Shown here: piece after piece, positions 5,331-33,168 of the stretch
Numbering within the stretch: position 1 is the first letter of the stretch
Layout: each line of letters begins with the position of its first letter
Source: Chondrosia reniformis
Lineage: Eukaryota; Porifera; Demospongiae; Chondrillida; Chondrillidae
Reading direction: 5' to 3'
Assembly (NCBI GenBank): GCA_947172415.1
Contig: OX359190.1
Location: 2,914,001 to 2,978,000 of the forward strand
DNA: 64,000 nucleotides
Made by a program: the position numbers and the translations under genes
The notes under the pieces: model-generated
The model's input: only the letters and a program-made list of their open reading frames with translations
Told to the model about the DNA's origin: nothing
Databases searched by the model: none

Positions 5331-8300
5331 ATGAACAAGAAGAACGTAAGTTTACTTAATAGGTCTCTTGTTAACTAAAGCAGTTTATAGGAGTGTTAAC
5401 TATTACTGGTCCGAATTCAGTGCTAAAATTATAATAGCCAAACTTAAGCTTAACACTATTAGCCACAACATAATTAACAACAAGTACACCACTGATGTAT
5501 TCAAATAGCCGAACTAAGAAATGCGACTTAATCTTAACTCTAGAAGTAGTTGGTCAAGTCTAGAACAGATATTGTAAGTGAACCTGCGCTGTCGGGACTA
5601 ACTGGCATACATTCAGAGACTAGTTTCTGTTTGATTGGGTTTGTTTAGAAAGCAATACTTGGCTGACTCGTGTACTTCAATTACAGTTGTTGGGTCCGTG
5701 TAAAACCTAAACCAAACCAGTCAACTATAGAGCGACGAGCCACACGCGATTCATATCCTTTTAGGGGACAAGTTAGAAAGCGAGGAACTGATTCGTAATC
5801 TTTCCGTAACTGAATAACCATTCTGTTACTCTACTGGTGGTAATTAGCTTGTCACTGTAAACGTTATAAAGTTTAAAATATGAGCATTATTAAACTATGA
5901 GCCATGCATGCACGTTAAGAATATTTAGACAAGAAGATTTACGGCACTTACAGACCTCAAAGTGTTCTTGCAATAAGCTGCTACAGAACTTGCTCCTTCC
6001 ATGTCATTCAGTTCCTCCAAACAGTGAATATTATCTTTTCTTTCTTGTCTCTAATTAGGTATTTCAAAGTGACCTCTTGACAGCTGGAGGAGGTCACTTC
6101 CTGAAATCAACTGAAATACCGGAAATTCCGATTGGAACTCTATTAGGGAAGGCAGTTACAATTAACGAGAGTGTATTTGTCTACGGAGGAGAATGTGAAA
6201 ATAGGGCATCTGAACGGATCGTTCAGGTATACAATGTACTAACGAAGAAATGGTCAACACTACCTCCATCTCCGTATTCTCTCAGTGGAGCCACCATCAT
6301 AAAAGATCAGTTAACTCTGATAGGAGGTAGAGTCACAGACACTCCTTGCACTCCTACAAGCAAGCTAGTAACATGGACAGGTGAAGAATGGTTAGAGCTA
6401 TATCCTCCAATGCACACTGCCCGATACACTCCAGGTGTTCTTGCTATTGGAGACTTAGTAATTGTGTCTGGAGGAGCAGGAGCAGATAACAGACGAGTAG
6501 ACACAATTGAATTCCTGGATATTGAGAATAAAAAGTGGACCCAGTCAAATCTGAAACTTCCTCGATCATTATCACTACACGACATGGCATTGTGTGGTGA
6601 ATACATTTACATCTACTACTTGGGCTATGGATATTTTTGGAGAATGAATAAGAAGAATTTTATGGCTTCACTTACCAATAATGAAGTACATCACTGGGAA
6701 GAGCTCGAGAATGCACCAGAGGGGAGTTCACTATTACAATACAGCGTCCTACCAGTCTTAGTAGGTCGAGATGGAATCTTCATTTTCGAGAAGAAGAAGT
6801 GGACACAAATTAGTAAAGAAACGTCTTATCGCAACACCTGTACGGCTTCCCTTAACGGAACTACTTTTCTCACCATTGGAGGAGTACAATATGAGGCAAG
6901 AGCTGTACAGTATGATATTGCAGTTGAGGTTAGTAACTTATTTAATTACAAATCATTACATTAAAGTATTACAAGTCTTGTTAACATTCGTTGCGCGCTT
7001 CGCGTGCACTTTCTCCCTCAAATAGAAACATTAGAAGGTTTTACTTCCTTCGTTAGAGTCACCTAACTTGTGCGCTCAGTGTGCACGAAGCGTGTGTCAA
7101 TGTTAACAAGACTTGTATTGTTTTAAGTTCTCGTACGAGTGTGTTCTACGAACGCTCTCACGAGTTTAAGTGTTAACTTGTTTCCACTAACGGGGACTGT
7201 TGGAAGTCTTCTTGTATCACCCGCTCTTTGTATTTGAAGGAGAAAGTAGAGTGTGTACGTTTTATAAAAGTGCCAAGTTGTAAAACGGTTTCTTGCGTGT
7301 AATTTGCAGAATATTAATTTCTCGTCCTGTGTACGTTCGTGTGATTAGTTATAAGATGGTGCAGGAGCGCATAATGAATAGACACAATTAATAAACTGCT
7401 AACTAAGTAACAATTTGAGTAAAATTACTGCGAAGTTTTATTTGGCAGCCAAAAGTCGGCCATTTTACCAGTGAAAAATAGTCGTCAACGTCTAGATCTT
7501 AGGCAGATGATTACAAAGTTCTTAAATCAGTATAGTCTACCTTGTTGAAGTGTAATAGAGATAAATAAAGTCAAATAGAACTGTCATTGACTTAGCCGAA
7601 CTAGAAGTGTCTAGTTTCTGTTCTCTAAAAGCTCCTTGTGTTAAGTTTATGTGAAGCACTCGAGAAAGTAATGATGTCTCCTATATAGGAAGCATTTAAC
7701 AGTTTAGCTAAGCGTTTTAATTACAGTACAAGTTATGTTAACATTCGTTGTGCCTTTCGCGTACACTTTAAAATAGAAACATTGTAAACATTTTCAATGT
7801 TAACAATTAAGACTTGTATTGCTTTAGATTGTTGATGTTCTCGTACGAGTGTGTCCTACGAGCGCTGATACGTACTTGTTTAAGTGTTTCCACTAACAAA
7901 GACTGTTAAGTCTTCCTTGCTCTTTGCATTTGAAGTGAGAAAGTAAAGCGCTCAAAGTATTATCCGCTAGAATTGTTAGCTTCATTGTCTGATTACTTAG
8001 AGTGTTTATTGTCGCGTATATGTAGACCTACGTACGTATATGTTTCAACTTGAATGTTTTCTCGTCCTGTGTATGTACGAGTGATTAGTTATAGATTGTT
8101 AGTTGAGCCACTTGCCATATTTTGAGAATTTTGGTGGTGCATATATTACGTATTCAACCTCTTTTGAGGTCCATAAACACACAATGCAATTAGCCTCCTA
8201 CCAACACCTACTCACATGTGAATTGATCTGGTTGATTTGAAGAGTTACTAATAATATTGTTTCTCTAGACACTCAAAAGTCAAAGGATAAACCATTATAA

Positions 8301-11300
8301 GAGGATTTAGTTACTGAATCATCATTTTATACCTATGGCCTGACATGTACGTATGTATACACTGTGATTGCTACATAGCATGTGCATTGTGTAGGGAGTA
8401 ATGTGTAAAAGGTCTTAGAAAAGTAGACCACGTGCCCACAACTAAGATACCATTGTGCTAGCACAGTCTTCAAAGGCCATAATAATTTAATTTATGCAGG
8501 CTATCAAATTTTCCTCATTTAAACACTACTGAAAAGTCCTTATGTGTACACTTGTGGGATTGACTGAGTTGTGATTAATGGTTACCTATTGTTCCCCAAC
8601 ATTCTTGTGAAGCTACTGTTTATCATATATGTATTATGCGTCACTTTTTGGTCCTACGTATGATGTACATATGAGGGAATTAAGAAATTAATTTATTTCC
8701 GATCCTAAAATGTATAGTATTTGCAATTGATTTGCAAACATCTAATCTTTTGAATATTGAAGCTTACGTACTTCTAAAAATGATTGAACCAAATATTCCT
8801 ATTCTAATCCATCCATGTTTGTTTGTTTATAAGCACAACTTCCAGCAGTTTGATAATTAGTGACCTTTTAATTGTTTGTTTGTTTATAAACTTCCACTAC
8901 TTTGCATAAAAATTAGCATATACTGTATAAATAATCTATCACACCATTTCTCTTACATGCTACTTCTACTTATCAAGTTAAGGTCCATAGAGAACTAAAC
9001 ATAGTAATTGTTTTGGATACTTTAGTAGATGGTATTTGCAATTGATTTGCCAACTTCTCATCTTTTTAAATATCGAAGCTTACTTCTAAAATTGATTGAA
9101 CCAAAAATTCCATGTTTGTTTGATAATTATTGACCTTTTAATTGTTTGTATGTTTAACATTACAGAGGTTTGATAATTAGATTTTAATTGTTTGGTTTTT
9201 TATAAACACAACTTGCACTTTGCATAAGGAATAATCTAATATACCATTTCTCTTACATGCCATATCTACTTTAGGGAATTAAACATAGCGAGTGTTTTGG
9301 ATTAGGATGCAGAGTTTCTCCTTCTCTTCTCTTTTTGGAACAATTGACAATTTGAGTGTTTGTTACTTTATAACGTTTATTAAGAATAAGTTGTTCAACT
9401 TGGGTCAGTTCTGTACCTTATACTAGACTGCTTTTAGTTTCTATATTTGGACATCTTACAAGCAGTGTACGTATTAGAAGATACATTAATACATTGCTCA
9501 AACTGATTTGGTGTAAGCAACACACAATGCAATTAGCCTCATACCAAGACCCACACACAAGTGAATTGATCTGACAACAGTGGACAGTCCATATGGTCCT
9601 CTGCCATATCTCATCTTGGTTAGGGTAGGAGGGTAGATTGTAGGAACTGTAAAATAGTTCTAAATGTTGTAATGTCTGTGTAGCCTGTACATTAGACTAG
9701 TCAATCTCATTCTAAATTAAAGTGTACATCCTCTACTTCATGATATAAACTCAACAACTGAAGTAGCACTACATTTAAAGAAGCCTTAAAAGTTAATCTA
9801 TGTAGATGGCAATTCTTTAACATACAATTGTTTATAGTTGTTTACGTACGTATGTTTATTAAGCGTTTATTCCTGTACTCCTGTTGTGTTAGGAGCAAAT
9901 GAAATATTTTTGATACCAACGTTGATCAAATCTAAATATCTGCATTGAGTCAAGACAATTGTTGTAACTATATTGATATGAAATATGCAATAATAATTTA
10001 CTTCTGTTTATTATATGTTTTGTTTTGTATGATATAGGAACCTCAGTGGTATGAAGAAGCCATAGAAGGGCATGGCTCTGTTGAGGTTAACATCTTTTAC
10101 TGTTTCCTAACAGGAGGCCCTCGTGTTGGTAAAACCTCACTGAAGCACTACCTGCTCTACAACACAGTAAGAGAAGACAAAACTAGCACTGGAGTGCTGG
10201 AAGCTCCTGAAGTGGCCACAATTGCTGACAATGGAGACACAAAAGGAAGAACAGATCGGTTGGAGGAATACCAGAGAGAAGAAAAGCAGAGAATGGAAGG
10301 CCAGGGAGAGGAAGAGAAGTATGATTTCATTAAATGCTTGGCAGTTGGTTCTTCCTGGAAAGTTTTAACAGATGAAAAGCTAGGGCAGCTTATTTCAAAG
10401 GTTAAGATGGAGAAGAGGAAGGTCTTTCCAGGCAGCACTCTAGAAGCCCCACCTGCCTCTCTTCCAAAGGCTTCATCTAATAATACCACTTTACCTGATG
10501 GTATCACCAAGACAACAGAGGTAGCCAGTGAGACTACCAAGCTGCCAACCGATGTCTCCAATTCCCCTCCGCCTCCTCCTAGCCATAGAGATGATACCAC
10601 TGAGGCTTTAGCAGTACAAGACCCACTAGAGTTGCTGGAGCAAGCCAGGGACAAGTTCCTGCTGAAACACAATCTCTCCACCGAAGCAGAATTTGATGAA
10701 AAGCAGTGTACGTTCATTTACCTCCTGGACACAGGAGGCCAGCCCTCCTTTCAGAATGTCGTTCCACTCCTACTAGACTTTCCCTGCAACTTTCTGCACG
10801 TCTTTAAAGCTTCAGAGAGGTTGACAGATCCGTATGTCAATGCTTTCTGTCGAGATGGAGCCACTGAAGAGATGAGAGCCAACAGCCGTTCAACCTGGGA
10901 ATTGATGAAGGAGTCCATTACAGCTGCCTACACAATGTCAATGAAGAGCAAGCGGCAGTTGAAAGCATTTGACATGCCTAATGAGCCCCAACTTCGCATT
11001 TTTCTTGTTGGCACTCACCTTTCCCATCTTCCTGAAGATCCTGAAGCTGAGAAAGCTCTACTGGACCACAACAAGACGGTTCTAGAGGAAATGGACAAGA
11101 AGCCTTATGATGGCAACAGGGTTTTCCCCCCAAAAGAAGTTGTCTACAAAGGTGCTGGTAGTTACTTTCTATTAGACAGTCAACTACAGGGAGACAGCAA
11201 GATGAAGGATCACACTTGCAAAGTAGTTAATGCCCTTCGCTCTCAGCTTGCAGATTTCAATAGTCGGTTAGCATTGAAAGTCCCCAAAGTTTGGTTCTGC

Positions 11301-13184
11301 CTGCAACTAATCACATCTAGCGTGAAAAGGAAGATGTGGAAGTTCACAGAAGTGAAAGAGTTCTGCCTCCGATGCCAATTCATCCAACCAGTAGATCCTG
11401 ACAGACAGCTCCTTGCACTGCTGAACCTATTTCATTGCCTTGGGTTCTATTTGTACTTTGACCTGAGTGAGTACAAAGAGCAGTGGATCTGTACAGATGC
11501 AACCTTTCTGTACAAGGAAATGTCCAAAGTGCTATCAGTCCAGTATGGCCCAAGTGAATCTTCAAGTCCAGAGCTACGTAACTTCAAGGAAAAAGGAGTA
11601 ATTCCTGAAGCTGTTTCAGAGGCCTTGTTTCAACAGCTAGATATCAATGCTGACATCCCAACAAGATGGCTCCTGGAGGTCTTGGTAAAAATTGGTATCG
11701 CAGCCAAAGTGAGAGAGAAGGAGACACACTACTTCATTCCAGCAGCCCTTCCTGAGAGGCAGATCCACCTATCTGAAGCATCTGTGGCCACTTTGGGATT
11801 CACTTTCTCATTCCATTCTGTCCAATATCAGAGATATACCTGCATACCAACTGGTCTATTCCACAGACTGGCTGTGGATATTGCAAGTGGCAGACAAGCA
11901 CTTGAGGATCAGCAGATCAAGCCTGCATACATCAGTGGAAGCCAGTGGGTGTACTGTCCCAGTCAATCTGACAGTACACAATTCTTATTCTCCCAAGATA
12001 ATGCCCACATTGTCCTTTTCCAAAAGGAGGACCTCATTCAGCTCCAACTGCTGATTCCAGCAGATTTTTCTCAGCTTGGTCTCTCTTTGACTGAGCTCTG
12101 CAGGTGTATCAGAATGGAAATGAAAGAGCGAATTGCTTTTGTAAGTAAAGCCATTTTCGGAAGCGAATTTTTAGCCCAAAAAGCTACTTTAGAGGATGGT
12201 GTCAATTGCCGTTACTGTGAGGGCTCCACTTTGCATCTTCTACGATTTAAAGATGGCAACCAGAGAAAGGGTCTGTGTACCAGACTGAACAAAGTGAAGT
12301 CACTATCTCCAAGAGAGTCTGTTTGGGTTGCTAAGGAACATGGCAGTGACACCATTTCTGTAAGTCTCATTTACGTATTTTAACTTAAACTTTAATATTA
12401 TCTTTTTAGCATAGTAATTATGTGGGTATGTACATGAAGAATGTAAAGCTTATTCCTATACTACAGTTGTGTGCAGCTAAACCAATTGAATTTGATGGAG
12501 AGCAGTTCCTAGCCTTCCAAGACCAGCCTTCATCAAGTGGGCAGTCCTCCTACCCAAGCATTTCACACCAGTCTGACGCACGTGGGCATGACCATTCTGA
12601 CACAAGAGGGCTTGATCAGTCTTTGCATCCAAGCAAGCGTGCTCGATCTTTGCATCCAAGCAAGCGTGCTGGCGTTGAACCTGGAGAGCTTAAAAGTTAG
12701 TGTATATATGAGCATTCGTAGGTGTGTCATTTGCAATAATGTTGTTTTTAAATTTCTTCTGTTCTTACTACCTGTACATGTAGTAATTTAAGACTACAGA
12801 TTTGTATAGTAGAAGATTGTATTTAAAACTGTTGTTTCTTACACCTATGTAGATGTTGAAAATTGGCAAGAGACCTTGCAGACTAAATACTGGCTATACC
12901 TCTTAAACAATTTGGTTGTCAACAAGATAGTTGATGAGCTCTATCAAGGAGTAGAAGGAGTGCCACTCATCACTTCACAGCTGTATGAGAAGATTGAGAG
13001 AGCTGATAGCAGGAAGGAAGCAAACAAGATCTTTATGAAGCACTTGCTGACTGCTGGTACAGTAAAGCAGTTCTGGTTGTTCTGTAAAGTGCTTCATCAA
13101 ACATCTGATGACTACGGAGTGCATGAAGAGATTCTTGAGAAGCTGAAAGAGGATTTCAACTTTAACTTTGGAAAACATACCTAA
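5331..13184 (+). CDS. Kelch - Roc/COR-like GTPase - CARD-like protein, copy A
   Basis: Spliced model, all junctions GT/AG and phase-consistent: 5331-5345, 6059-6928, 10038-12359, 12467-12695, 12853-13184; about 1255 aa. The short first exon encodes MNKKN. Exon 2 (residues about 6-295) has five or six Kelch-type blades (VFVYGGE, LTLIGG, VIVSGG, FLTIGG, each followed by a W-containing strand). Exon 3 starts the GTPase: P-loop GGPRVGKTS (about 321-329), G3-like DTGGQ (about 526), and VGTHLS (about 619) where NKxD would stand, as in Roc-type GTPases. A COR/winged-helix-like stretch follows. The last exon is an all-helical CARD-like domain (about 1146-1255). Known: Roc-COR proteins are GTP-dependent scaffolds and CARDs pair homotypically. 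Inferred: a cytoplasmic sensor or adaptor. Linking the Kelch exon to the GTPase exon across a 3.1-kb intron rests on matching phase and identical layout in copy B. Two separate genes remain possible. Confidence 0.72.
6929..10037 (+). other. Long intron 2 of copy A
   Basis: About 3.1 kb, AT-rich, with no coding signal seen. It contains palindromic elements at about 6970-7120 and 7728-7830, TTTGTTTATAAAC-type repeats at 8815-9220, and a right-arm remnant of the foldback element found whole in unit B (about 8118-8142). Confidence 0.6.
6970..7120. repeat. Palindromic short element in intron 2, copy A
   Basis: The arms TACAAGTCTTGTTAACATTC and its near-complement ending GTTAACAAGACTTGTA bound about 150 bp, giving a strong hairpin. 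The same element is at 21540-21691 in unit B, and degraded copies lie at about 7728-7830 and 22080-22180. It looks like a non-autonomous inverted-repeat element. Confidence 0.7.
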
Positions 13185-13788
13185 AATACGTCATTATTTA
13201 TTATTATAACAATATTGAAATTACATAAAAATTGTCATCCAAAAAGAAAAAAATGTTGCGTCATTGCACCATAGGCTAGTAATTGTTTTTTTTTCACAGC
13301 TATCAGGATCATTCTCACTGCAACATAAATAGTTGAAGGTACTTTTCCCTATATATATAGTCCCAAAAGTTAGCAGTCTTCAAATATATGCTATATGTAT
13401 GTCACAATGGACTCCTTTGTATCAATGAGATACTTAGAGTGAGCAGCAATCCACTAGTCAATAATGGTAACACCTCCAACCTGCCACCTCAAGTGGTCTG
13501 ACAAGGGATTACAAAACACTGCTGAGGAGACAAGTTCATGAATTTGAAGCTCTTCCTTTTCTACAGAACAACAATTATCTCATTAATCAGATGTAAAACT
13601 GAACCTTTTCATTACACAATATAACAACACACACATAACTGAGTCTTCTACATCTGTAATTGGCTGCAGCTTTAATTGAAGGGATATACCCTGGATCAGC
13701 ATACAGGTAATCTCTCCTTCTCATGTGAAACAGCCCCCCCCCCATGTAATTATGGGTTTATACATTCCATGTATGTATACGTACTTAC
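13185..13788. other. Spacer after copy A
   Basis: No gene seen. AT-rich, with a poly-C run at about 13735-13743 next to the isolated collagen exon. It is the 3' flank of copy A, and no canonical AATAAA was found close to the stop codon. Confidence 0.5.
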
Positions 13789-14055
13789 AGCAGGTCCTTG
13801 TGGACCAGGGAGACCAACATTTCCTTCTATATATGCCCACATCTCCAGCATCACCCAGTTCTCCAACATCTCCTGGCTCACCACACATTCCCCTAGCACC
13901 CTTAAGCCCTATTAGACCACCATCACTACCATTAGGTCCTTGGGCTCCCACAGGTCCACCATCTCCAGACCCTCCTCTTGCACCTCCAGCTCCTTGGTGT
14001 CCCACACGTTCTGCTGCTCCGTCATCCCCTGACCACCTTGACCACCTGTCAGACC
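13789..14055 (-). pseudogene. Isolated third copy of one collagen exon
   Basis: A single Gly-X-Y exon matching 1787-2059, with acceptor at 14055/14056 and donor at 13788/13789. Small deletions near the acceptor and a 4-bp insertion (TATA-type) near 13828-13833 break the frame. It ends just before the junction with STAT-derived sequence at about 14091. Confidence 0.8.
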
Positions 14056-14090
14056 CTACAGTCGTAGGAATGAAGTCACTTTATACAATG

Positions 14091-16430
14091 GCAGTGTGCA
14101 TCTGTCCATGTTGCGACATCATCACATTCTGATAAAGGGTTTCTAACTGCTTCAGCGGGTGACAGAGCTGCCAGTTCACTTCAGCTAGAATCTCACACCT
14201 ACAGACGGGATCACACAGAAACAAAAGCTAACAAAGCAGATCTACAGCAGGCCTGATGCTAGTGTTCAGAAGGAGGAGTATTGAAAGTTCAAAGTGGTAC
14301 TTTTGTAACCAGCTAAAGTGTTCCTGAACTGGATGTATCATGGGTGGGATCAAGTCAGCTCTGATAGAAATCATTTATGCCCTGAGGAAAGAATATCTAC
14401 AGACTATAGCCAGAGAATATTAGGAACGTATGCTTGAAATACTGCAACCTGTAAATATACACAAGAGTGGCTAATGTACAATATTACAGGATTCACAGAA
14501 GATCAAGATAAAGAAAAGACAAAGACTCCCAGGATCACTGATGAAGGGTGGAATTCCCAGAAACGGCTGTCTGACCCAGTGGAGAAGAAGATGAAAGAAG
14601 GGAAAAGAAGGAAGAAAAGACTCCTGTATCTTCATCCAAATCTCTCTTCAGGTTTAGTTCCCCTATAGGCTCTTTTACAGAATAGGCATATAGCATGTAG
14701 GAAAATGCATGGTATCTTAGATTTTTCATGTCCATTCTTCCACTCTTCCTCAGGCTATTGTCCCACAAATACTAGGGTTGGTTGTGGCCTAGAAAGGGGT
14801 GGATCTAATATTTTAAGGAGGTGGGGGTGCTAAGGTATACAGGGGACCTCATCCCATGGGAGGCTTCAAGGTTCAAGGTTCAAGGTGACAGAAAAAGGAT
14901 ATGGGGCAGTTTGGCTAATACAGACAAACTCAATAACAAACTCAATCTCATAGAGGATGCTTCAGTGCACAGAGCCCTTGTATCCACCACTGCTAGACTT
15001 TCCATCACCATTTGGATTGTGGAGGAGAATCTATGGGCGTACATACATGCACATAATATACACCATGTATAGTAGTACGTAGTAACAGTGCACGTTTACT
15101 ACAAGAGGTCTGTTACAGCATATAACTAAAGTAGAACAAAAGTCTTATAATCAGACTTTCAAAATAATCTCAACTCGACACTGCTCAGTAGGAAGGTTTT
15201 CCAGCCACCTTAAGTACGTACTTATATACATACATATATAAACTAGAGGAGTTAATGGCACTTAACTGTGCAAAGGCTATGATGATTAGCAAAATTTGTT
15301 TTTTGGAATAATACGTTACAGTGATTATTTTGTTTATCACATACATATACGTCCATGTATAGGTGCACAAACATAAACAAATGTAAACAAATCATAATAT
15401 CTAGTGTTACAGGCTTACCATTGTTGAATTTGGTTTAGTTTCTTTGTCTGAAAACCTTCTTCATTTTTGTAGTGCTTTTGTTTCGTTTTTAAATCTTCCA
15501 ACACATCATCCAACACTTTTTGTTGTGCCTGACCAATCTCGTCCAATATGGTTCTGCACTTTGTACTAACTTCCTATGTAAACAAGAAGCATACCAAATC
15601 ATCCAGGCAAAAATCTTGGTTTAGGATTTGAAGCTGATTTGGAACTCTGACAGTAATCAATTATAGCTAAAACATCTCATCATCCACCATAACAAATATA
15701 CACTGTAAGTAAGTAAGGAGCTATATGCTTCTAGGAAGGTGTACATTTCAAGCAAACCAGTTAACTGTAAAGTACTCCAAAATTAACTTGTTCATAAAAA
15801 TAATGAAATGATTAATTGGAATATACGTGTACACAAGTACTATAGTTTGGAACATTTTCGTTGTTAAAATATTTTCTGCCATTGGCTTAAACTATGTCAG
15901 TGAAAAATATACGTATTAGTGAGCTCAAATTTCTATATTGCGTGGGTGACATACGTATATAGAAACAATTGTATGCCCTTAGCAATATATATAATCCTTT
16001 CCAAACTTGTGTTACACACATAATTGAAGATGTCCAATACCAATTAATTTGGCAACTTTTAATACATTATTACTCTACCAAGAAAGAGATAAAGTACTTC
16101 ATACATAAAAGTATTTCTAAGAACTAAGTGCTTGTGTAAAGTTTATATATACCTCCAATTTCTTTTTCATTGTATCTTGTTCCACTGACCAATGGGTTTC
16201 CAGTTTGCGAATTCTTGCCCCCTCCTCTGCACTCTGTGGATTTTGTGAGTCTAAAGTATACACACAAAGAGAAATGAAATACTGTTCTTTGACTGTAACT
16301 CAAAGGATAATCATGACAGATGGCACATTCACATAGGATCAGGATAAGTGATTTAGATTTAATGGAGCATTAAATTGTCAGATACAGTATACTGTACGTA
16401 CATGGGCCATACATATGGTTTTCAACAGTG
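14091..16430 (-). pseudogene. Duplicated STAT exons 9 (partial), 8 and 7
   Basis: In transcript order: exon 7 copy 16153-16250, exon 8 copy 15419-15573, and exon 9 copy from acceptor 14198 to an abrupt break at about 14091. The first two are full length and open, with intact splice sites. Source coordinates are 40304-40401, 39574-39728 and 39273-39380. About 14300-15330 is an insertion of about 1 kb absent from the source intron. The fragment encodes coiled coil only, without DNA-binding or SH2 parts. Confidence 0.85.
14480..14745 (-). mobile_element. About 250-bp dispersed repeat, antisense copy
   Basis: Matches, on the opposite strand, the repeats at 60868-61100 and 61935-62150. Shared blocks include a CCACTGGGTCAGACAGC-type segment, GGAATTCCACCCTTCATCAG and AACTAAACCTGAAGAGAG. 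It sits in the sequence inserted into the STAT-derived fragment. It has no coding capacity of its own, so the class is unclear. Confidence 0.65.
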
Positions 16431-16439
16431 CAGATAATT

Positions 16440-17271
16440 TTCTAAATGGTCAAGTTCAGCAGAACCCAAGCCGACTACACTAGACAGGTTTCACTCTAAG
16501 AGGCTCTAAGAATTGAAGCATTGCTATGGTATAGTAGTTAACAATAAATAGAATGTTTATATTCTATTAATTGAAAACTGTAAATAACTTAGGATAAGCT
16601 TACAGATAACTAATAGACTTAACCAATCCTAGCAATGAGAACCTCTAGTACAAGATGGTACATCTCTAGGTGTAATGACTTCACAATGTTTTAGTAAGTA
16701 AGTAATTAGCTACTACACATTACAGATCAAGAAGAAGAAGACACAGCCAAGGGTCACTGGAGAAGGGTGCTATGGTATAATGTAAAATTCAAACAACACA
16801 TAGGTGATTAGTGATTGGATGACCCCATCTGAAATGCTTCCATACCTTAGAGACAGAGGAGTGATTAGTAAGAACGTAACAGCTGGATGGATGAGTAAAG
16901 TGGTAGTAATACTGACCATACCATTGAGCAATACTGGTTATATCATTGAGCAATACTGGCTATATCATTGAGCAACATACTGGCTGATGATACATATAGA
17001 ACATTCCTTTAGGAAGGACACAGGGGGTGAGCAAAATACAATAATGGCTAGGTACCAATAATCAAAGTGATAATCAAACCACAACCATTAATAAACATCA
17101 TGAAGAGGGGAACACTGGGAATCAAACCCTGGGCAGTTTGCTATAATCACCAGTCCTCTGCCACTGAGTTACAATTGAATATCATACAATTTAATGATAT
17201 ACAACATACTGTAATTCAATGAGTATGTGGTCAATTGAGCAATGCTGGCTATACCATTGAGCAATAGAGGT
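16440..17271. other. Spacer joining STAT-derived and collagen sequence, unit B
   Basis: No coding signal. The first part matches unit A (about 481-900) and the second part matches STAT intron 9 (38630-39180), including its minisatellite and SINE-like repeat. It ends at a junction near 17272 inside a collagen exon. Confidence 0.6.
17035..17180 (-). mobile_element. tRNA-derived SINE-like repeat, unit B
   Basis: On the minus strand this reads A-box-like TAACTCAGTGGCAGAGGACT, then B-box-like GGGTTTGATTCCC, then a tail with CATGATGTTTATTAATGG and GGTTTGATTATCACTTTG. The copy at 38955-39127 is its source or sister. Confidence 0.65.
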
Positions 17272-19700
17272 TACACCATCTCCAGACCCTCCTCTTGCAC
17301 CTCCGGCTCCTTGGTGTCCCACACGTCCTGCTGCTCCATCATCTCCTGGATTTCCAGCAGGACCTTGACCTCCTGTCAGACCCTACAGTCGTAGGAATGC
17401 AGTCACTTTATACAATGGACAGTCAGACATTCATGATAATACTTTCTATGTATGACAGCTTACTGGTGCACCAAGATCACCTCTTATTCCCGTAGCACCA
17501 ATGGACCCTCGGCTCCCTGCACCTGAGGACACAACATGAATTGACTTATGTAGCCATGGTAACAGATTAAACACACTTGGACCTGTTTTAAGTTGCATAG
17601 TTACCAATCATAAGTATACCTTCATCTTTGCCACGTTGACCCTGGTTCTCCAGTCTGACCTTTAGGACCAGTAAATCCCTGTGGACCAGCAAGACCAGCA
17701 GATTCATCAGCTCCTTGTTCACCAGCTGCACCAGTTGCACCACGATCTTCACCTGTTCCAGGTCAACCCTGTTGTCCCGAGTTACCAGGACCAACTGCAG
17801 GTCCACTGGAACCCTATATATATGTATACATACACTTGCACCATCACCTCCAGGAGCTCCAATGTCACCTCGCTACCCTACCAGTGAATCGCATACAATA
17901 TCAGACAATGTCACAAATTAATGTAATAAAGATAGTGATAGAAAACATACTCAAGATATATCTAGTCTACAGGATGCTACCTATATATGTAAGATCTTTA
18001 CCAACTCTTTAACTGACCTTTTCTCCTTGATCACATTGTGCCTCAGTAGAACTTATACATCTCCCTTGGCACCTTTGGCACCTTGTGAACTAGTTGCACC
18101 AGTAAGACCACTCACACCCTACAGAGAATGAAATGTAGTCGACCAACATGCAGTATGCTTCAATTGGGCCCACTCATGAGGAGAATGACTATCAGGTTCT
18201 TGAATGCATACTATAACTATAATTTACCTTACTGCTGCTCCAGCTGTTCCAGAGGGAGGATTAGTACAAGGATCCCTGTGTTTACCAGGGTCACCATGGT
18301 TACCATTGCTGCCCGGATCTCCAACAGCACATACATTACCAGGTTCTCCATCAAAACCTCTGTCTCCCTTCCTCCCTATATATTTGTTGAATTAATCTCC
18401 ATGTGGACCAGCCTTTGACTCCATGGTTACCATGGTAACCTACCTAATTGACCCCTTTAGCTCCTTTTTTCTAGTTACTTCTAGATTGACCCTTTTAGGT
18501 CCTAGATTGTCATGTTCCATTTAATCCAGGCAATCCTTGATTACCCTGAAGAAATGATCATTATCTTGAACAAATAGCACTTTTGGCTCTGATATGTAAA
18601 TCCACTCACTGTGGTACCTTGTGACCCTATGGGTCCCATTTCTCCTTTCTGACCATGCAAGCTTTCCTTGGTCTCCACTATGTCCAGGTCAGCCATCCAC
18701 ACCATTTTCACCAGATACACCAGGATTATCAGGTGATCCATCACAGCTAGAAGTGGACCCAACACTGTTACTATATTTGAAATGATGTACAAGTAGAAGT
18801 AGGAGGTGTCATCCTTTACATTTGGCACCAGACACACTTGCACTCTAAAGGGAAGGAGAATGAATGAATAACATTATGATATGAATAATTCAATTTAAGT
18901 GCTCTCATAATATTATTCATGGGGTTAGTACTTCCTCATTAAGATCCTATGGAATGTAGACCTCATAAAACTACTACCAGACCTGAACATGTGACCTCCA
19001 CTGGCTAGAGAGACTAGTCAAGAATCCTATCTCTAAGTAATTAAGGTCCTTTAGTGTAACATGCAGACACAACAATACCTCACTAAAGCAACACTAATCC
19101 AAAGGAATATAATCATATAGGACACTTAACTAGCTAAATACTGGAAGAGCATCTACAAGTAAATTTCATACATCATATTATCAAATCAAATATAATATAT
19201 TGTACAATGTATTGTAGGTACACTTCCACAGGTGGAAAGTGGATTTCAAATGATCAGAAAATCCTCATTAATCAAGTCAATTCATGCATATAGAAAACGA
19301 TATACCTTTTATTGAAAAAGTCTTTACATCTTCTTTATACATCTTTATACACTCTTTACATAGATAGCTAGAACTAGTTCCTACGATACAGAAAACAGGA
19401 CAAGCTTTACCTTTCATAACAGCTGCATGGAGGAGAATTAAATCATTGAGGTGGTGCAGTAGATTAGATATGTGATCATACTTCAATGTGCCGCAGACAA
19501 GAAAGTACATTTGGCAGGGTCAATAAACTGGGAATCTCATTCCCTATCCTCATGTTAAGTACAACTTGAAGGTCAGCCATCCTTGCCATATCCTGATCTT
19601 GTTCTCCAGTCTGACCTCTGGGGACCACTACTACCAACCAATACAGGAGCTCCCTGTTCACCAGACACACCACTGCAGCACAATCTCTACCTGTTACAAG
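17272..19700 (-). pseudogene. Collagen-like gene, unit B, truncated copy
   Basis: Second copy of the minus-strand collagen block: exons 17272-17382 (cut off relative to 1787-2059), 17464-17522 (59 nt; one base lost against the 60-nt exon at 2143-2202, so the frame breaks), 17620-17813, a stub at about 17835-17873, 18059-18118, 18233-18375, 18610-18770, and a weaker fragment at about 19530-19690. It lacks the equivalents of 1017-1787 and of about 2510-2970. At about 18290 it keeps a Gly that unit A has changed to Val, so the copies decay independently. It is likely non-functional. Confidence 0.65.
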
Positions 19701-19994
19701 TACAACAAGTTGCATGTCTTTGAATTGAAGGATGTAGTTTGGTGAGGCTTGATTGAGTCAATATAGTGTTTGCTATATAAACATTTCGAAATGTGTTGCA
19801 TACCTTATACTTTATTTGGAAATGTTTTCCTCCAAGAATAGCGGGAAAACACTCAGATCTGCCGCCAATAGTTAAATAAGGAATACGGTCGTTATAGTAA
19901 CGGCATAGTAACAGTGTGGTCAGTAAAGTATTTGCTAAGTAGTTCTCGGTTTTCAAGTGTTCAGTTTTTTCTTTTGTTTGCCTTGCTGAGGATA
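19701..19994. promoter_or_regulatory. Divergent spacer before Kelch-GTPase-CARD copy B
   Basis: Counterpart of the region before 5331 and close in sequence to it, with small indels. It separates the truncated collagen block from the ATG at 19995. Confidence 0.4.
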
Positions 19995-22900
19995 ATGAAC
20001 GTGGAGAACGTAAGTTTACTTAATAGGTCTCTTGTTAGCAGTTTATAATGTTGTAGGAGCTAGTGTTAACTATTACTGGTCCGAATTCAGTGCCAAAATT
20101 AAAACTCGCTTAGTTTGAGATAATAGCCAAACTTAAGAAAGTAATTAGCTACAGAGTTAGTGAACCTGTCGGGACTAACTGGTATACATTCAGAGACTAG
20201 TTTCTATTCGATTGGGTTTGTGTAGAAAGGAATACTTGGCTGGCTCGAGTACTTCAATTACAGTTGTTGGGTCCGTGTAAAACCTAAACCAAACCAGTCA
20301 ACTATAGAGCGAAGAGCCTCACGCGATTCATATCCTTTTAGGGGACAAGTTAGAAAGCGAAGAACTACTTCGTAATCTTTCCGTAACTGAATAACCATTC
20401 TGTTACTCTACTGGTGGCAATTAGCTTGTCACTGTAAACGTTATAAAGTTTAAAATATGAGCATTATTAAACTATGAGCCATGCATGCACGTTAAGAATA
20501 TTTAGACAAGAAGATTTACGGCACTTACAGACCTCAAAGTGTTCTTGTAATAAGCTGCTACAGAACTTGCTCCTTCCCTGTCATTCAGTTCCTCCAAACA
20601 GTGAATACATTATCTTTTCTTTCTTGTCTCTAATTAGGTATTTCAAAGTGACCTCTTGACAGCTGGAGGAGGTCACTTCCTTAAACCAACTGAAATACCG
20701 GAAGCGACTATTGGAACTCTGGGGAAGGCAGTTGCAATTAACGAACGAGTATTTGTCTGCGGGGGAGAGTGTGAAAATGCAGCATCTGAACGGATCGTTC
20801 AGGTATACAATGTATTAACGAAGAAATGGTCAACACTACCTCCATCTCCGTATTCTTGCAGTGAAGCCACCATCATAAAAGATCAGTTAACTCTGATAGG
20901 AGGTTATGACACTCGTCGCACTCCTACAAACAAGCTAGTGACATGGACAGGTGAAGAATGGTTAGAGCTATATCCTCCAATGCACACTGACCGATACCAT
21001 CCAGGTGTTCTTGCTATTGGAGACTTAGTAATTGTGTCTGGAGGAGCAGGAGCAGGAGTATACACAATTGAAGTCCTGGATATAAACAATAAAAAGTGGA
21101 TCCAGTCGAATCTGAAACTTCCTGAACCATTAGCACTACACCACATGGCATTGTGTGGTGAATACATTTACATCTACTACTGGAACAATGGTTATTTTTG
21201 GAGAATGAATAAGAAGAATTTTATGGCTTCACTTACCAATGATGTACATCACTGGGAAGAGCTCGGGAATGCACCAGGGAACAGTTCACTTTTACAATAC
21301 AGCACCCTACCAGTCCTAGTAGGTCCAAATGGAATCTTCATTTTCGAGAAGAAGAAGTGGACACAAATTAGTAAAGAAACGTCTTATCACTTCAATTTTA
21401 CGGCTTCCCTCAACGGAACTACGTTTCTCACTATTGGAGGATATGGAGGAGTAAGACAATATGAGACAAGAGCTGTACAGTACGATATTGCAGTTGAGGT
21501 TAGTAACTCATTTAATTACAAAACATCACATTAAAGTATTACAAGTCTTGTTAACATTCGTTGCGCGCTTCGTGTGCACTTTCTCCTTCAAATAGAAACA
21601 TTAGAAGGTTTTATTTCCTTCGTTAGAGTCACCTAACTTGTGCGCTCAGTGTACACGAAGCGCGTGTCAATGCTAACAAGACTTGTATTGCTTTAAGTTC
21701 GCGTACGAGTGTGTTCTACGAACGCTCTCACGAGTTTAAGTGTTAACTTGTTTCCACTAACGGGGACTGTTAGAAGTCTTCTTGTATCATCCGCTCTTTG
21801 TATTTGAAGGAGAAAGTAGAGTGTGTACGTTTTATAAAAGTGCCAAGTTGTAAAACGGTTTCTTGCAATTAATAAACTGCTAACTAAGTAACAACAATTT
21901 GAGTAAATTGCTACGAAGTTTTATTTTGGTAGCCAAAAAAGTCGGCCATTTTATCAGTGAAAGATAGTCTTCAACGTCTAGATCTTAGGCAGATGATTAC
22001 AAAGTTCTTAAATCAGGTTCTCCTTATTGAAGTAAGTGTAAGAGAGATAAATAAAGTCAAATAGATTGTATTGTAATTACTGTACAAGTTATGTTGACAT
22101 TCGTTGCGCGCTTCGCGTACACTTTAAAATAGAAACATTAGAAGGTTTTATTTCCTATTTTCAATGTTAACATGACTTGTATTACTTTAGATTAATGTTC
22201 TCGTACGAGTGTGTCCTACGAGCGCTGATTCGTACGTGTTTAAGTATATTCCACTAACGAAGACTGTTAAGTCTTCCTTGCTCTCTACATTTGAAGTGAG
22301 AAAGTAAAGCGTTCAAAGTATTATCCACTAGAATTGTTAGCTTCATTGTCTGATTACTTAGAGTGTTATTGTCGCGTGTATGTAGACCTACATACGTATG
22401 TTTCAACTTGAATGTTTTCTCGTCCTGTGTACGTACGAGTGATTAGTTATAGATTGTTAGTTGAGCCACTTGCTAACAGCAAAAAGGGTAAATTGCTACC
22501 AATTAAGTCTTTATGCTTACAGCCATTTAGCAGTGAATATGTTGTCATATACTAGTCAGATCATTCGACTGAGAGAGGTACCGTGTTTTTAAATCTGGTG
22601 TTCCCTAGCATAAAGGTACAATAAAATAGTTTTTTTTTTTTCAGTAATATTATCATCAAGAATATAGCATTCTTATCATTTGAGAATGATATACTACATT
22701 GTTTGAGTGGGTATGTCTGTACGTATACGTATCCTAATTTATTGAGACTCAGCAACAATTGTATTTAAAAACAAATTGAACGTTTCAACCCAAAAGTATT
22801 CATCAGCATAATAATTTATGCACCACCAAAATTCTCAAAGTATTTATACGTACGTAGATGGCCATTTTTCTAACACACTGTCTGTATACGTACATAGATT

Positions 22901-25900
22901 CAAAGAGTTTCCTTATACTTGATAGCTTTTAGTTGCTATGTACATCTTCCAAGCAGTGTGTTAGAAAAATGGTCGTCTACGTATAAATATTTTGAGAATT
23001 TTGGTGGTGCATAAATTACGTATTCAACCTCTTTTGAGGTCCATAAACACACAATGCCATTAGCCTTCTACCAACACCTACTCACATGTGAATTGATCTG
23101 GTTGATTTGAAGAGTTACTAATACTGTTTCTCTAGACACTCAAAAGTCAAAGGATAAACCATTATAATAGGATTTAGTTGCTGAATCATCATTTTATACC
23201 TATGACCTGATATCTACGTATGTATACACTGTGATTGCTACATAGCATGTGCATTGTGTAGGGAGTAACGTGTAAAAGGTCTTAGAAAAGTAGACCACGT
23301 ACCCAGAACTAAGATACCACTGTGCTAGCACAGCCTTCAAAGGCCACAATGATTTAATTTATGCAGGCTATCATATTTTCCTCATTTAAACACTACTGAA
23401 AAGTCCTTATGCATTCACTTGTGGGATTGACTGAGTTGTGATTAATGGTTTCCCAACATTCTTGTGAAGATACTGTTTATCATATACGTATATATGTGTT
23501 ATGTGTCACTTATTGGTCCTACGTATGATTTACATATAAGTGAATTAATAAATGAATTTATTTCCGATCCTAAAATGTATGGTATTTGCAATTGATTTGA
23601 ATATCGAAGCTTACTTCTAAAATTGATTGAACCAAAAATTCCTATTCTAATCCATCCATGTTTGTTTGATAATTATTGACCTTTTAATTGTTTGTTTGTT
23701 TGTTTACAAACATTACTTCCAATGGTTTGATAATTAGATTTTAATTGTTTGTTTGTTTATAAACACAACTTGCACTTTGCATAAGGAATAATCTAATATA
23801 CTATTTCTCTTACATGCCATATCTACTTTAGGGAATTAAACATAGCGAGTGTTTTGGATTAGGATGCAGAGTTTCTCCTTCTCTTCTTCTCTTTTTGGAA
23901 CAATTGACAATTTGAGTGTTGGTTACTTTATAACGTTTATTAAGAATAAGTTGTTCAACTTGGGTCAGTTCTGTACCTTATACTAGACTGCTTTTAGTTT
24001 CTATATTTGGACATCTTACAAGCAGTGTACGTATTAGAAGATACATTAATACATTGCTCAAACTGATTTGGTGTAAGCAACACACAATGCAATTAGCCTC
24101 ATACCAAGACCCACACACAAGTGAATTGATCTGACGACAGTGGACAGTCCATATGGTCCTCTGCCATATCTCAACCTGGTTAGGGTAGGAGGGTAGATTG
24201 TAGGAACTGTAAAATAGTTCTAAATGTTGTAATGTCTGTGTAGCCTGTACATTAGACTAGTCAATCTCATTCTAAATTAAAGTGTACATCCTCTACTTCA
24301 TGATATAAACTCAACAACTGAAGTAGCACTACATTTGTAGAAGCCTTAAAAGTTAATCTATGTAGATGATAATTCTTAACATACAATTGTTTATAGTTGT
24401 TTAATTAAGCGTTTATTCCTGTACTCCTGTTGTGTTAGGAGCAAATGAAATATTTTTGATACCAACGTTGATCAAATCTAAATATCCGCTTCATTAAACC
24501 TTTTAAACCTCACCTTTTATATAACTAGCTACGTATACTTGAAAACTGTAAACATTGAGTCAAGACAATTGTTGTAACTACATTGATATGAAATATGCAA
24601 TAATAATTTACTTCTGTTTATTATATGTTTTGTTTTGTACGATATAGGAACCCCAGTGGTATGAAGATGCCATAGAAGGGCATGGCTCTGTTGAGGTTAA
24701 CATCTTTTACTGTTTCCTAACAGGAGGCCCTCGAGTTGGTAAAACCTCGCTGAAGCACTACCTGCTCTACAACACAGTAAGAGAAGACAAAACTAGCACT
24801 GGAGTGCTGGAAGCTCCTGAAGTGGCCACCATTGCTGAGGATGGAGACACAAAGGGAAGAACAGATCGGTTGGAGGAATACCAGAGAGAAGAAAAGCAGA
24901 GAATGGAAGGCCAGGGGAAGGGGAGCCAGGGAGAGGAAGGCCAGGGGAAGGGGAGCCAGGAAGAGGAAGGCCAGGGTAAGGGGAGCCAGGGAGAGGAAGG
25001 CCAGGGGAAGGGGAGCCAGGGAGAGGAAGGCCAGGGGAAGGGGAGCCATGGAGAGGAAGGCCAGGGGAAGGGGAGCCAGGGAGAGGAAGGCCAGGGGAAG
25101 GGGAGCCAGGGAGAGGAAGGCCAGGGGAAGGGGAGCCAGGGAGAGGAAGGCCAGGGGAAGGGGAGCCAGGGAGAGGAAGGCCAGGAGAAGGGGAGCCAGG
25201 GAGAGGAAGAGAAGTATGATTTCGTTAAATGTTTGGCAGTTGGTTCTTCCTGGAAAGTTTTAACAGATGAAAAGCTAGGGCAGCTTATTTCAAAGGTTAA
25301 GATGGAGAAGAGGAAGGTCTTTCCAGGCAGCACTCTAGAAGCCCCACCTGCCTCTCTTCCACAGGCTTCATCTAATGATTCCACTTTACCTGGTGATATC
25401 ACCAAGACAACAGAGGTAGCCAGTGAGACGACCAAGCTGCCAACCGATGTCTCCAATTCCCCTCTGCCTCCTCCTAGCCATAGAGATGATACCACTGAGG
25501 CTTTAGCAGTACAAGACCCACTAGAGTTGCTGGAGCAAGCCAGGGACAAGTTCCTGCTGAAACACAATCTCTCCACCGAAGCAGAATTTGATGAAAAGCA
25601 GTGTACGTTCATTTACCTCCTGGACACAGGAGGCCAGCCCTCCTTTCAGAATGTCGTTCCACTCCTACTAGACTTTCCCTGCAACTTTCTGCACGTCTTT
25701 AAAGCTTCAGAGAGGTTGACAGATCCGTATGTCAATGCTTTCTGTCGAGATGGAGCCACTGAAGAGAAGAGAGCCAACAGCCGTTCAACCTGGGAATTGA
25801 TGAAGGAGTCCATTACAGCTGCCTACACAATGTCAATGAAGAGCAAGCGGCAGTTGAAAGCATTTGACATGCCTAATGAGCCCCAACTTCGCATTTTCCT

Positions 25901-27990
25901 TGTTGGCACTCACCTTTCCCATCTTCCTGAAGATCCTGAAGCTAAGAGAGCTCTGCTGGACCACAACAAGAAGGTTCTAGAGGAAATGAACAACAAGCCT
26001 TATGATGGCAACAGGGTCCTTCCAAAAGAGGTTGCCTACAAAGGTGCTGGTAACTACTTTCTATTAGACAGTCAACTACAGGGAGACAGCAAGATGAAGA
26101 ATCACACTTACAAAGTAGTTAATGCCCTTCGCTCTCTGCTTGCAGATTCCAAGAATCGGTTAGCATTGAAAGTCCCCAAAGTTTGGTTCTGCCTGCAACT
26201 TATCACATCTAGCGTAGAAAGGAAGATGTGGAAGCTCACAGAACTGAAAGAGTTTTGCCTCCGATGCCAATTCATCCAACCAGTAGATGCTGACGGACAG
26301 CTCCTTGCACTGCTGAACCTGTTTCATTGCCTTGGGTTCTATTTGTACTTTGACCTGAGTGAGTACAAAGAGCAGTGGATCTGTACAGATGCAACCTTTC
26401 TGTACAAGGAAATGTCCAAAGTGCTATCAGTCCAGTATGGCCCAAGTGAATGTCCAAGCACAGAGCTACGTATCTTCATGGAAAAAGGAGTAATTCCTGA
26501 AGCTGTTTCGGAGGCCTTGTTTCGACAGCTAGATATCAATGCCGACATCCCAACAAGATGGCTCCTGGAGGTCCTGGTAAAAATTGGTATTGCAGCCAAA
26601 GTGAGAGAAAAGGAGACACGCTACTTCATTCCAGCAGCCCTTCCTGAGAGGCAGATCTACATACCTGAAGCATCTGTGGCCACTTTGGCATACACTTTCT
26701 CATTCCATTCCGTCCAAGATGAGAGGTATACCTGCATACCGACTGGTCTATTCCACAGACTGGCTGTGGACATTGCAAGTGGCAGACAAGCACTCAAGGA
26801 GGAGGAAGTGAGCCCAGTCCAGCTGAGAGGAAAGCAGTGGAGGTACTATCACAAGCAATCAGGCTGTACACAGTTCATTTTCACACAGGAAAATGCCCAC
26901 ATTGCTCTTTCCCAAAAGGAAGACCTCATTCAACTCCAACTGTTGGTTCCTCAGCACTTTCGCAAGCTAAGTCTTTCCTTGACTGAGCTCTGCAGGCACA
27001 TCAGAAAGGAGATGTACAAGCGCATTTGTTATGTGAGTGAGGTAGTCTTTGGTGCTGAGTTTCTTGAAGAGAAAGCCACTTTAGAGGACGGGATCATTTG
27101 CAGTCACCAGAATTGTGAGGACTCCAGTTTGCATCTTCTGCGATTTGAATGTGACAACCAAAGTACAGGTCTGTGTACCAGACTGACCAAGATGACCGGA
27201 CTAAATCCAAGAGAGTCTGTTTGGGTTGCTAAGGAACAGGACAGTGACACCAATGTAAGTTTTCATAATATTATTATTCAACAGATAAGTTTTTTCACGA
27301 ATGTAGAACAATTTTTGACTGTACGTATATTTTGCATTCTGATCTTCTGCTACTGTCTCTATTATTGTTATTCTTTCAACACAAGTAATTATTAATTTTT
27401 ATATCTGCTTCTGAATATATAGTTGAGCGTGGCTGGTAATGTGGAATTTGATGGAGACCAGTTCCTTCTCTATAAAGACCAGTCTACCTGTACTGGAGGA
27501 CCCGGAGTTGTTGGACAGCCAACCCCATCTGACAACTCAGGAGAGTGTGATGGTGAGTGCGTATTCACTGTAACACTAAATAACGCACATTAAATTTTGC
27601 TTTTATGTACATTTATGTACATAATTTTGCACATAATATTGTTGAATGACTCAGTGTTCATATTATTTTGGTACAGAGAGCTGGAAAGAAAAGCTCAAAG
27701 GCAATCACTGGGTTTACCTGTTGGGAAACCTCACTGTCGACAAGATATGTGACCACCTCTACCAGGGAGTGGATGGAAAGTCACTGGTTACTGAAGAGGT
27801 GTATGATGAGATTGAGAATGCAAAGAGCAAAAAGGAAGCAAACAAAATCTTCTTAAAGCACTTACTGAATGCTGGTACGGAGGAGAGTTTGAAGCTGTTT
27901 TGTACAGTTCTTCGACAAACATCTAATGACTATCAGATTCATGAAGAGATTCTTGAGAAACTGAAAGCTGATTTCAAATTTGGAATGTAG
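19995..27990 (+). CDS. Kelch - Roc/COR-like GTPase - CARD-like protein, copy B
   Basis: Paralogue of the gene at 5331-13184 with the same five-exon layout: 19995-20009 (MNVEN), 20638-21498 (Kelch propeller), 24648-27254 (GTPase and COR-like), 27423-27552 (linker), 27677-27990 (CARD-like). About 1308 aa, no stops or frameshifts. P-loop GGPRVGKTS is at about 318-326 and DTGGQ at about 617. It differs from copy A mainly by a ten-copy 30-bp repeat in exon 3 that adds about 100 Gly/Glu/Gln/Lys residues between the P-loop and G3. Kelch loop residues also vary, and the region after the COR-like part, the linker and the CARD are clearly more diverged. The GTPase/COR core is nearly identical to copy A, which points to recent duplication or gene conversion. 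Function is inferred as for copy A. Confidence 0.72.
21540..21691. repeat. Palindromic short element in intron 2, copy B
   Basis: Orthologous to the element at 6970-7120, with the same inverted arms and few differences. It was present before the segmental duplication. Confidence 0.7.
22817..23012. repeat. Foldback element unique to unit B
   Basis: Two arms of about 57 nt (left starting GCACCACCAAAATTCTCAAA, right ending with its complement) flank a loop of about 80 bp. Unit A has only the right-arm end at about 8118-8142, so the element was lost there or gained in B. Confidence 0.75.
24908..25208 (+). repeat. 30-bp in-frame coding minisatellite, about 10 copies
   Basis: Ten tandem copies of a 30-bp purine-rich unit with few substitutions encode a decapeptide reading roughly QGKGSQGEEG. 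They lie in exon 3 of copy B between the P-loop and the DTGGQ motif. Copy A has a single remnant at the same place (about 10296-10318). Because 30 is a multiple of 3, copy number can change without breaking the frame. The encoded segment should be disordered and highly charged. Confidence 0.95.

Positions 27991-33135: not shown

Positions 33136-33168
<33 letters not shown>

Follow-up and report, generated by a model that had tools for sequence, protein, structure and literature searches.

On chromosome 2 of the kidney sponge Chondrosia reniformis, a window of 64,000 nucleotides (C2:2914001-2978000, within a chromosome of 10,288,994 bases) contains two neighboring genes in which exons encoding a Kelch propeller, a Roc-COR GTPase module and a CARD-like domain follow one another. 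The locus raises the question of whether these parts form one protein, how widely such genes are distributed in the genome and what their products could do in the animal. Our analysis indicates that both genes, here named copy 1 and copy 2, are members of an expanded family, and that this family probably encodes NLR-like receptors, presumably intracellular, with Kelch as the sensor, Roc-COR as the switch and CARD as the output. Unless a chromosome is given, positions are those of the window.

Gene structure of the two copies

According to the gene models, copy 1 extends from 5331 to 13184 and encodes 1255 amino acid residues, and copy 2 extends from 19995 to 27990 and encodes 1308 residues. 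Both lie on the plus strand and show five exons in the order start exon, Kelch, Roc-COR, linker and CARD-like exon. All introns are GT..AG and their phases (0, 0, 0 and 1) are identical in both copies, in agreement with the five phase-matched exons per copy described in an earlier reading of these letters (the sequence-only reading). Intron 2 is about 3.1 kb long in each of them.

Exon 1 would encode only five residues, MNKKN in copy 1 (5331..5345) and MNVEN in copy 2 (19995..20009); it is predicted from an ATG followed by a GTAAGT donor, in phase 0 in copy 1, and is probably the weakest element of the gene model. Exon 2 contains the Kelch propeller (6059..6928 and 20638..21498). Exon 3 of copy 1 (10038..12359) encodes Roc, with the motifs GGPRVGKTS, DTGGQ and VGTHLS, followed by COR, and is assigned on the Pfam Roc and COR-A matches of its relatives, the invariant motifs and the recurrent acceptor and donor. 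The corresponding exon of copy 2 (24648..27254), placed by the gene model and by alignment with relatives, carries 30-bp in-frame repeats (GQGKGSQGEE-like) in a Roc insert with approximate limits 24900..25210; these were recognized as a repeat family and by alignment, and are absent from copy 1. Exon 4 encodes the linker, at 12467..12695 in copy 1, where comparison with the same exon of the relatives gives 12467 as the best position for the acceptor, and at 27423..27552 in copy 2, from the gene model and comparison with relatives. Exon 5 encodes the C-terminal CARD-like domain (12853..13184 and 27677..27990); in copy 1 it is assigned by 60% amino acid identity to copy 2 and by family-level CARD support.

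Splice signals were surveyed in 31 loci, which comprise 30 loci fetched around Roc exons (copy 1 among them) and copy 2. An acceptor AG was found exactly at the start of exon 3 in 30 of the 31 loci, and a GTRAG donor near its end in all 31. An AG also precedes the CARD exon in 30 of 31, a weak test given that an AG within 15 bases is common. Furthermore, the P-loop lies upstream of the first Met of exon 3 in 30 of the 31 loci; therefore, the Roc exon is unable to start translation with an intact P-loop and needs an upstream exon, and the closest coding exon upstream is the Kelch exon. The Kelch, Roc-COR and CARD exons are thus predicted to be spliced into one protein.

Size and distribution of the family

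The whole Chondrosia reniformis assembly (117,379,552 bases in 15 contigs) was searched, and all counts are lower bounds. The genome report describes 117.37 Mb in 14 chromosomes plus the mitochondrial genome, with chromosome 2 measuring 10.29 Mb, and gives 4.71 Mb as the contig N50 and 69.8 as the primary consensus quality (PMC12181767). False haplotypic copies are possible at these values of N50 and consensus quality.

Exon 3 matched at least 58 main places, 53 of them free of stop codons. At the level of single rows, we obtained at least 116 for the 350-residue core of exon 3, at least 136 for the Kelch exon and at least 150 for the CARD exon. Pairing by position used 103 of the 136 Kelch rows, after removal of 31 rows at 35-40% identity and two small pieces, and 74 Roc genes derived from 76 of the 116 rows, after removal of 40 rows at 36-51% identity and merging of two split Roc genes. 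A Roc core on the same strand, downstream and before the next Kelch exon, was found for 66 of the 103 close Kelch exons, and in 65 of these a CARD-like exon follows. Seen from the Roc side, 68 of the 74 close cores are followed by a CARD-like exon at a distance of up to 1.5 kb, and such an exon was present at all 30 loci fetched around Roc exons. The Kelch-Roc pairs are arranged in arrays, and the 0.77-3.56 Mb region of chromosome 2 contains 62 of the 66. The sequence-only reading had proposed a tandem pair: both copies are real, but they are two of at least 65 such genes and not just a pair.

The comparison of the window copies points in the same direction. Copies 1 and 2 can no longer be aligned in introns 3 and 4 or in the 3' flank (45-50% identity), while the CARD exon retains 69% identity with a ratio of nonsynonymous to synonymous substitution rates (dN/dS) of 0.32. 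The recurrence across the genome, together with the conservation of the CARD exon between diverged introns, confirms that the Kelch-Roc-COR-CARD order exceeds chance.

Domain assignments

Pfam identified Kelch strongly in both copies, with best E-values of 3.6e-14 in copy 1 (Kelch_6) and 1.4e-14 in copy 2 (Kelch_KLHDC2_KLHL20_DRC7); the latter profile scored 51.9 and 54.3 bits in the two copies, above its cut-off of 50. An AlphaFold2 (AF2) model of the copy 1 Kelch exon was of moderate confidence (pLDDT 60, pTM 0.66), and Foldseek related it to NS1-BP, KLHL2 and KEAP1 at E-values of 3e-10 to about 1e-8.

Matches to the GTPase module were weak in the window copies (COR-A 4.4e-4 and 4.9e-3; Roc 0.032 and 0.046), with Roc preceding COR-A in both. 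Across the family, the Roc and COR-A profiles matched 28 of 28 Roc-COR exons at E<=0.1 (best 1.1e-3 and 6.3e-6, respectively), and the motifs G1 (GKT) and G3 (DTGGQ) are invariant in all 28. The COR-A cut-off is passed by eleven other places in the same genome. The proteins appear to have the Roco order, Roc then COR, at most as a divergent branch, and one scan each of prokaryote genomes and viral contigs found no relatives of the Roc-COR exon.

The CARD exon of copy 2 matched Pfam CARD at 9.1e-4, below the cut-off, and its AF2 model (pLDDT 88.5) shows the six-helix bundle of a CARD. In Foldseek, CARDs dominate the 50 matches displayed (RIG-I, CARD8, APAF-1, NLRC4 and ASC), with probabilities up to 1.00. 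In the family, 21 of 30 CARD exons matched Pfam CARD at E<=0.1 (best 1.4e-5) and 12 of 30 matched SCAPER_N. Structure prediction of the Kelch and CARD exons, which the sequence-only reading had recommended, gave a propeller and a death fold; the Kelch blades, the Roc/COR-like GTPase and the CARD-like domain that it had named were all recovered, by sequence the GTPase and the CARD below curated cut-offs. No NACHT, NB-ARC or LRR appeared among the Pfam matches of the window-copy exons at E<=1; therefore the family is not an NLR family and is only NLR-like in its layout.

Variation of the Kelch face

In KEAP1 and KLHL proteins, ligands are bound by the propeller face formed by the B-C and D-A loops. 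We defined the presumed binding face with the strands of the Kelch AF2 model, with blades 5 and 6 adjusted to the pattern seen in relatives. Between copies 1 and 2, 37 of 107 face columns differ, vs 13 of 172 elsewhere (Fisher 1.9e-8). The corresponding dN/dS of the face was 1.79 (0.96-4.96), compared with 0.26 (0.10-0.68) for the rest, at similar synonymous rates (dS 0.124 and 0.140). When one more full relative was included, the values were 1.82 (1.05-3.72) and 0.41, again with dS much alike in face and rest, and with six copies, three of them partial, 2.29 (1.33-4.61) and 0.42. Counting along the shortest paths among the six sequences, nonsynonymous and synonymous changes were 106:17 in the face vs 59:35 elsewhere (Fisher p 9.5e-5). 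In a control in which the mask was slid along the chain, the true register alone of 270 attained the observed count, with two as well as with three sequences. Furthermore, the face is more variable than the loops at the bottom of the propeller with two and with three sequences (p 0.0012 and 0.022).

Taken as a whole, the Kelch exons of the two copies are 91% alike, with a dS of 0.13 and a dN/dS of 0.66, and the adjoining intron stretches are 95-98% alike. It looks as if the Kelch exon resisted homogenization.

Mixed ancestry of gene tails

Purifying selection acts on Roc-COR and CARD, with dN/dS of 0.28-0.51 by segment in the former and 0.33 in the latter (28 genes each). The Roc-COR alignment excludes L004, L006 and L014 and the CARD alignment excludes L011, all of them with stops, although L011 is among the 28 CARDs used for dN/dS. 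The 5' and 3' parts of these genes show different relationships. Roc is at least 93% identical in 70 gene pairs, and in 37 of these the CARDs are at most 65% identical. The nearest neighbor is the same by Roc and by CARD in only eight of the 28 genes. The window copies are crossed in this respect: L003 is the nearest neighbor of copy 1 when Roc is compared and of copy 2 when CARD is compared, and L002 is that of copy 1 in CARD and of copy 2 in Roc. L009 and L025 share 93% of the CARD but 83% of Roc. This crossed ancestry emerged from a looser comparison; under stricter limits for the converse exchange, with CARDs no less than 95% and Roc no more than 87% identical, no gene pair was detected. 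A simple recent duplication of the window pair was considered and rejected: the 5' part, where it can be aligned, is mostly 90-99% alike, but dS reaches 0.48 from about codon 575 of exon 3 and 0.94 in CARD. Because of this jump, copies 1 and 2 are regarded as mosaics, and such genes may have arisen either by exchange of tails or by gene conversion homogenizing the 5' parts.

Tail remnants were also found. Behind copy 2 lies a frame-broken second tail cassette (28899..29440, plus strand) composed of exon 4-like pieces and a second CARD type; tblastn gave 58-60% to this type at 29171-29382, with stops in all three frames. In L043, where both Kelch and Roc are broken, one CARD type is followed by a decayed second CARD type and then by an open Death domain (E 2.3e-12).

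Death, NACHT and kinase partners

Death domains behind Kelch exons were sought with 35 chromosome 2 rows of 142. They were found behind ten Kelch genes with Roc and CARD, behind one Kelch exon that has a CARD but lacks a Roc core, and behind 15 that have neither of the two. A block at C2:1871227-2182034 contains 22 close Kelch exons that are followed by neither a Roc-COR core nor a CARD row; 12 of them, all among the 15 just mentioned, have a Death domain 3.7-9.3 kb downstream, and no partner was found for the other 10. A kinase was also considered as the partner in this block and was rejected, as the kinase of L037 gave no row there (132 of 359 candidates scored).

Comparison of the 150 CARD rows with 101 NACHT rows revealed six CARD-like exons (31-40% identity) that precede a NACHT match of the same strand by 0.6-2.0 kb, and none within 3 kb on the other strand. 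Their position just upstream of NACHT ties the CARD family to the NLR-like genes of the sponge. Genome-wide, there are at least 101 NACHT matches above the cut-off (on C7, C1, C9, C10 and others) vs 19 caspase-family rows.

Other combinations of the same exons were observed. Distant Kelch exons (about 30-37% identity) are found beside kinase exons in L036-L041 and L044, on C14, C4, C11, C12, C13 and C7; the kinase exon was seen in L037, L039, L040 and L044, and is assigned by position in L036, L038 and L041. The same kind of Kelch exon is joined to other parts. L040 shows Kelch and kinase with a CARD-like exon behind, and in L031 (C7:2858742-2868741) a Kelch exon of 52% identity is followed by a CARD-like exon with no intervening Roc match. 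Further Roc-COR cores (36-51% identity) are located on C1, C3, C4, C6, C10, C11 and C13. By eye, a CARD-like row follows about 1 kb further along the same strand for at least three of those on C10 and one of those on C13, and genes with Roc-COR and CARD but without a Kelch of this kind may be present on these two chromosomes.

Proposed function and alternative explanations

In the model we propose, a ligand would dock onto the B-C/D-A loops of the N-terminal Kelch propeller, the face at which the copies have diversified. In response, the Roc-COR GTPase module would switch state, as Roco proteins do, and this would expose or oligomerize the C-terminal CARD. The CARD could then recruit CARD partners, perhaps common to the NLR-like genes of the sponge, leading to cell death or inflammatory signaling. 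For the recognition step there is evidence of selection, and the face would presumably be the place where ligand is bound; it is the domain logic alone that suggests GTP switching and CARD signaling, and an immune role is presumed. An intracellular location is suggested because no signal peptide or membrane span was visible by eye in any exon of the model. The sensor-switch-output logic that the sequence-only reading had compared with NLRs gains support from the excess of amino acid changes in the presumed binding face, the at least 65 members, the CARDs near NACHT and the Death domains behind relatives, its role still being conjectural. As for the broader proposition that an animal has a second intracellular immune system of NLR-like design, with at least 65 Kelch-Roc-COR-CARD receptors and Kelch-Death relatives in megabase clusters, a diversified Kelch recognition face and an exchangeable death-fold output cassette, we consider the chances evenly balanced.

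Several observations weigh against the receptor reading. The family is known from one species and from genes alone, and no partner was found for 18 of the 103 close Kelch exons. The loop mask derives from a model of moderate confidence, was partly set by hand (in blades 5 and 6), and dates from after the alignment had been seen; in distant Kelch families, the face contrast is weaker (0.86 vs 0.64 in C14/C4; 2.1 vs 1.0 in C7, with few changes). Roc and COR-A remain below the Pfam curated cut-offs wherever they were scored, and no PDB chain was matched by sequence at E<=1 with the 28-member Roc-COR profile, nor with exon 3 alone. The G4 motif of Roco proteins usually contains an Asp; in the family it is THLS, without Asp, in 28 of 28 exons, so that specificity for GTP is at best putative. 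At the output end, the CARD exon of copy 1 on its own matched only SCAPER_N (3.2e-4, below the cut-off) and not CARD, the Foldseek E-values of the CARD model are 0.1 or more, and PDB searches by sequence with the CARD profile (E<=5) found no CARD, the weak matches given by the exon and the profile including none. To these must be added the limits of the face statistics, which bear directly on one of the alternatives.

This alternative is an ordinary intracellular scaffold or adaptor family of the Roco/Kelch signaling kind, duplicated in tandem, in which the loop changes reflect relaxed constraint. Many non-immune roles are known for Kelch and Roco proteins, the window copies alone show no face dN/dS significantly above 1 (P 0.115 for the nonsynonymous excess), and with six sequences the variable columns of the bottom loops (18/43) are not significantly fewer than those of the face (58/107; p 0.21). 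Relaxation alone, however, would not yield a face dN/dS near 2 while the rest is constrained, and the nonsynonymous excess in the face has P values of 0.015 with three sequences and 0.002 with six, both optimistic since the sequences share history. We judge this explanation unlikely. Slightly better placed, although still improbable, is a role in self/non-self recognition during tissue fusion and chimerism, in which variable Kelch faces would recognize polymorphic proteins of the sponge and the CARD would carry out the rejection. In its favor are the sessile life of the animal and the size, clustering and diversified face of the family, and the anatomy fits it equally well; however, with an exon 1 of five residues and no secretion signal or membrane span by eye, reading the cell surface would need a partner. 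Microbial sensing is favored over allorecognition because the protein looks cytosolic, although either would fit the data.

A further alternative would deny the single protein altogether, by making the Kelch exon one gene and the Roc-COR-CARD exons another, adjacent as a duplicated gene pair. The length of intron 2 in both copies and the existence of other partners for Kelch exons elsewhere in the genome could be explained in this way. Against it stand the phase 0 match at both ends, the lack of a Met before the exon 3 P-loop and the exact acceptor, each in 30 of 31 loci, and the repetition of the order across 65 genes, and we give this explanation very little weight. An NLR-like receptor encoded as one Kelch-Roc-COR-CARD protein remains the reading that we prefer.

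Other features of the window

Between copies 1 and 2, collagen-like Gly-X-Y stretches were noticed by eye on the minus strand, at 13721-14080, 17588-17872 and 18541-18873. Beyond copy 2, a stretch on the minus strand (32937-33398) presumably resembles the SH2 domain of STAT proteins.

Comparison with known systems

No described family with Kelch, Roc-COR and CARD together was found in the open-access literature searched, many subscription papers being outside this scope; the sequence-only reading likewise knew of none with this order. Animals are thought to sense intracellular danger through NTPase receptors, mostly with LRR or WD40 repeats, and animal NLRs combine NACHT and LRR with CARD or Death. 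The sponge family resembles animal NLRs in its repeat sensor, NTPase switch, death-fold output and large clustered organization, and also through the same-family CARD-like exons upstream of six of the 101 NACHT matches. It differs from them in having a Roc-COR GTPase for the NACHT ATPase, Kelch for LRR, and a death fold that is C-terminal and not N-terminal. If the family is functional, an animal would have assembled the plan of sensor, switch and death fold from another set of modules, Roco GTPases (the kin of LRRK2 and DAPK1) would gain a clear immune setting, and there would be a testable handle on how a microbe-filled sponge tells microbes apart. If the broader proposition of a second NLR-like system is true, the family would be a counterpart to the NLR repertoires of plants and animals, with a GTPase as its switch and a propeller as its sensor.

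Parts of this plan have been described separately. A review of Roco proteins counts WD40 and Kelch motifs among the parts that flank Roc-COR, and describes DAPK1 as Roc-COR followed by a Death domain (PMC6320773); the Roc-COR core is shared with the sponge family, and the Kelch motif and the death-fold partner are each known, but among the proteins set out there none combines the two, nor is a large clustered family with a diversified Kelch face described. In the sea anemone, NG1 joins LRR, Ras/Roc, a low-threshold COR and TIR_2, and NG3 joins kinase, Death and TIR with Roc/COR (PMC5094078). Both resemble the sponge family in linking Roc/COR to immune domains, and differ, as reported, in their LRR or kinase parts and TIR outputs, with no Kelch or CARD. 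TRADD-N proteins with WD40 propellers are reported from amphioxus and an oyster, together with a TRADD-N expansion in Amphimedon (PMC8195603); these are also expansions in marine invertebrates in which a death fold is coupled to variable parts, the amphioxus propellers being highly variable, although the account concerns a TRADD-N adaptor and WD40 and not Kelch, Roc-COR and CARD.

By analogy, the nearest precedent in logic are the LRR-ROCO proteins of brown algae, candidate immune receptors with positively selected sites on the concave side of the LRR, for which LRR-ROC-COR is the only ROCO structure reported in these algae (PMC11378527). As in the sponge family, Roc-COR is combined with a repeat sensor, diversifying selection falls on the ligand side, and diversification is based on exons. 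Unlike in the sponge family, the sensor of the algal proteins, as described there, is an LRR shuffled as single-repeat exons, no CARD is attached and the lineage is distant.

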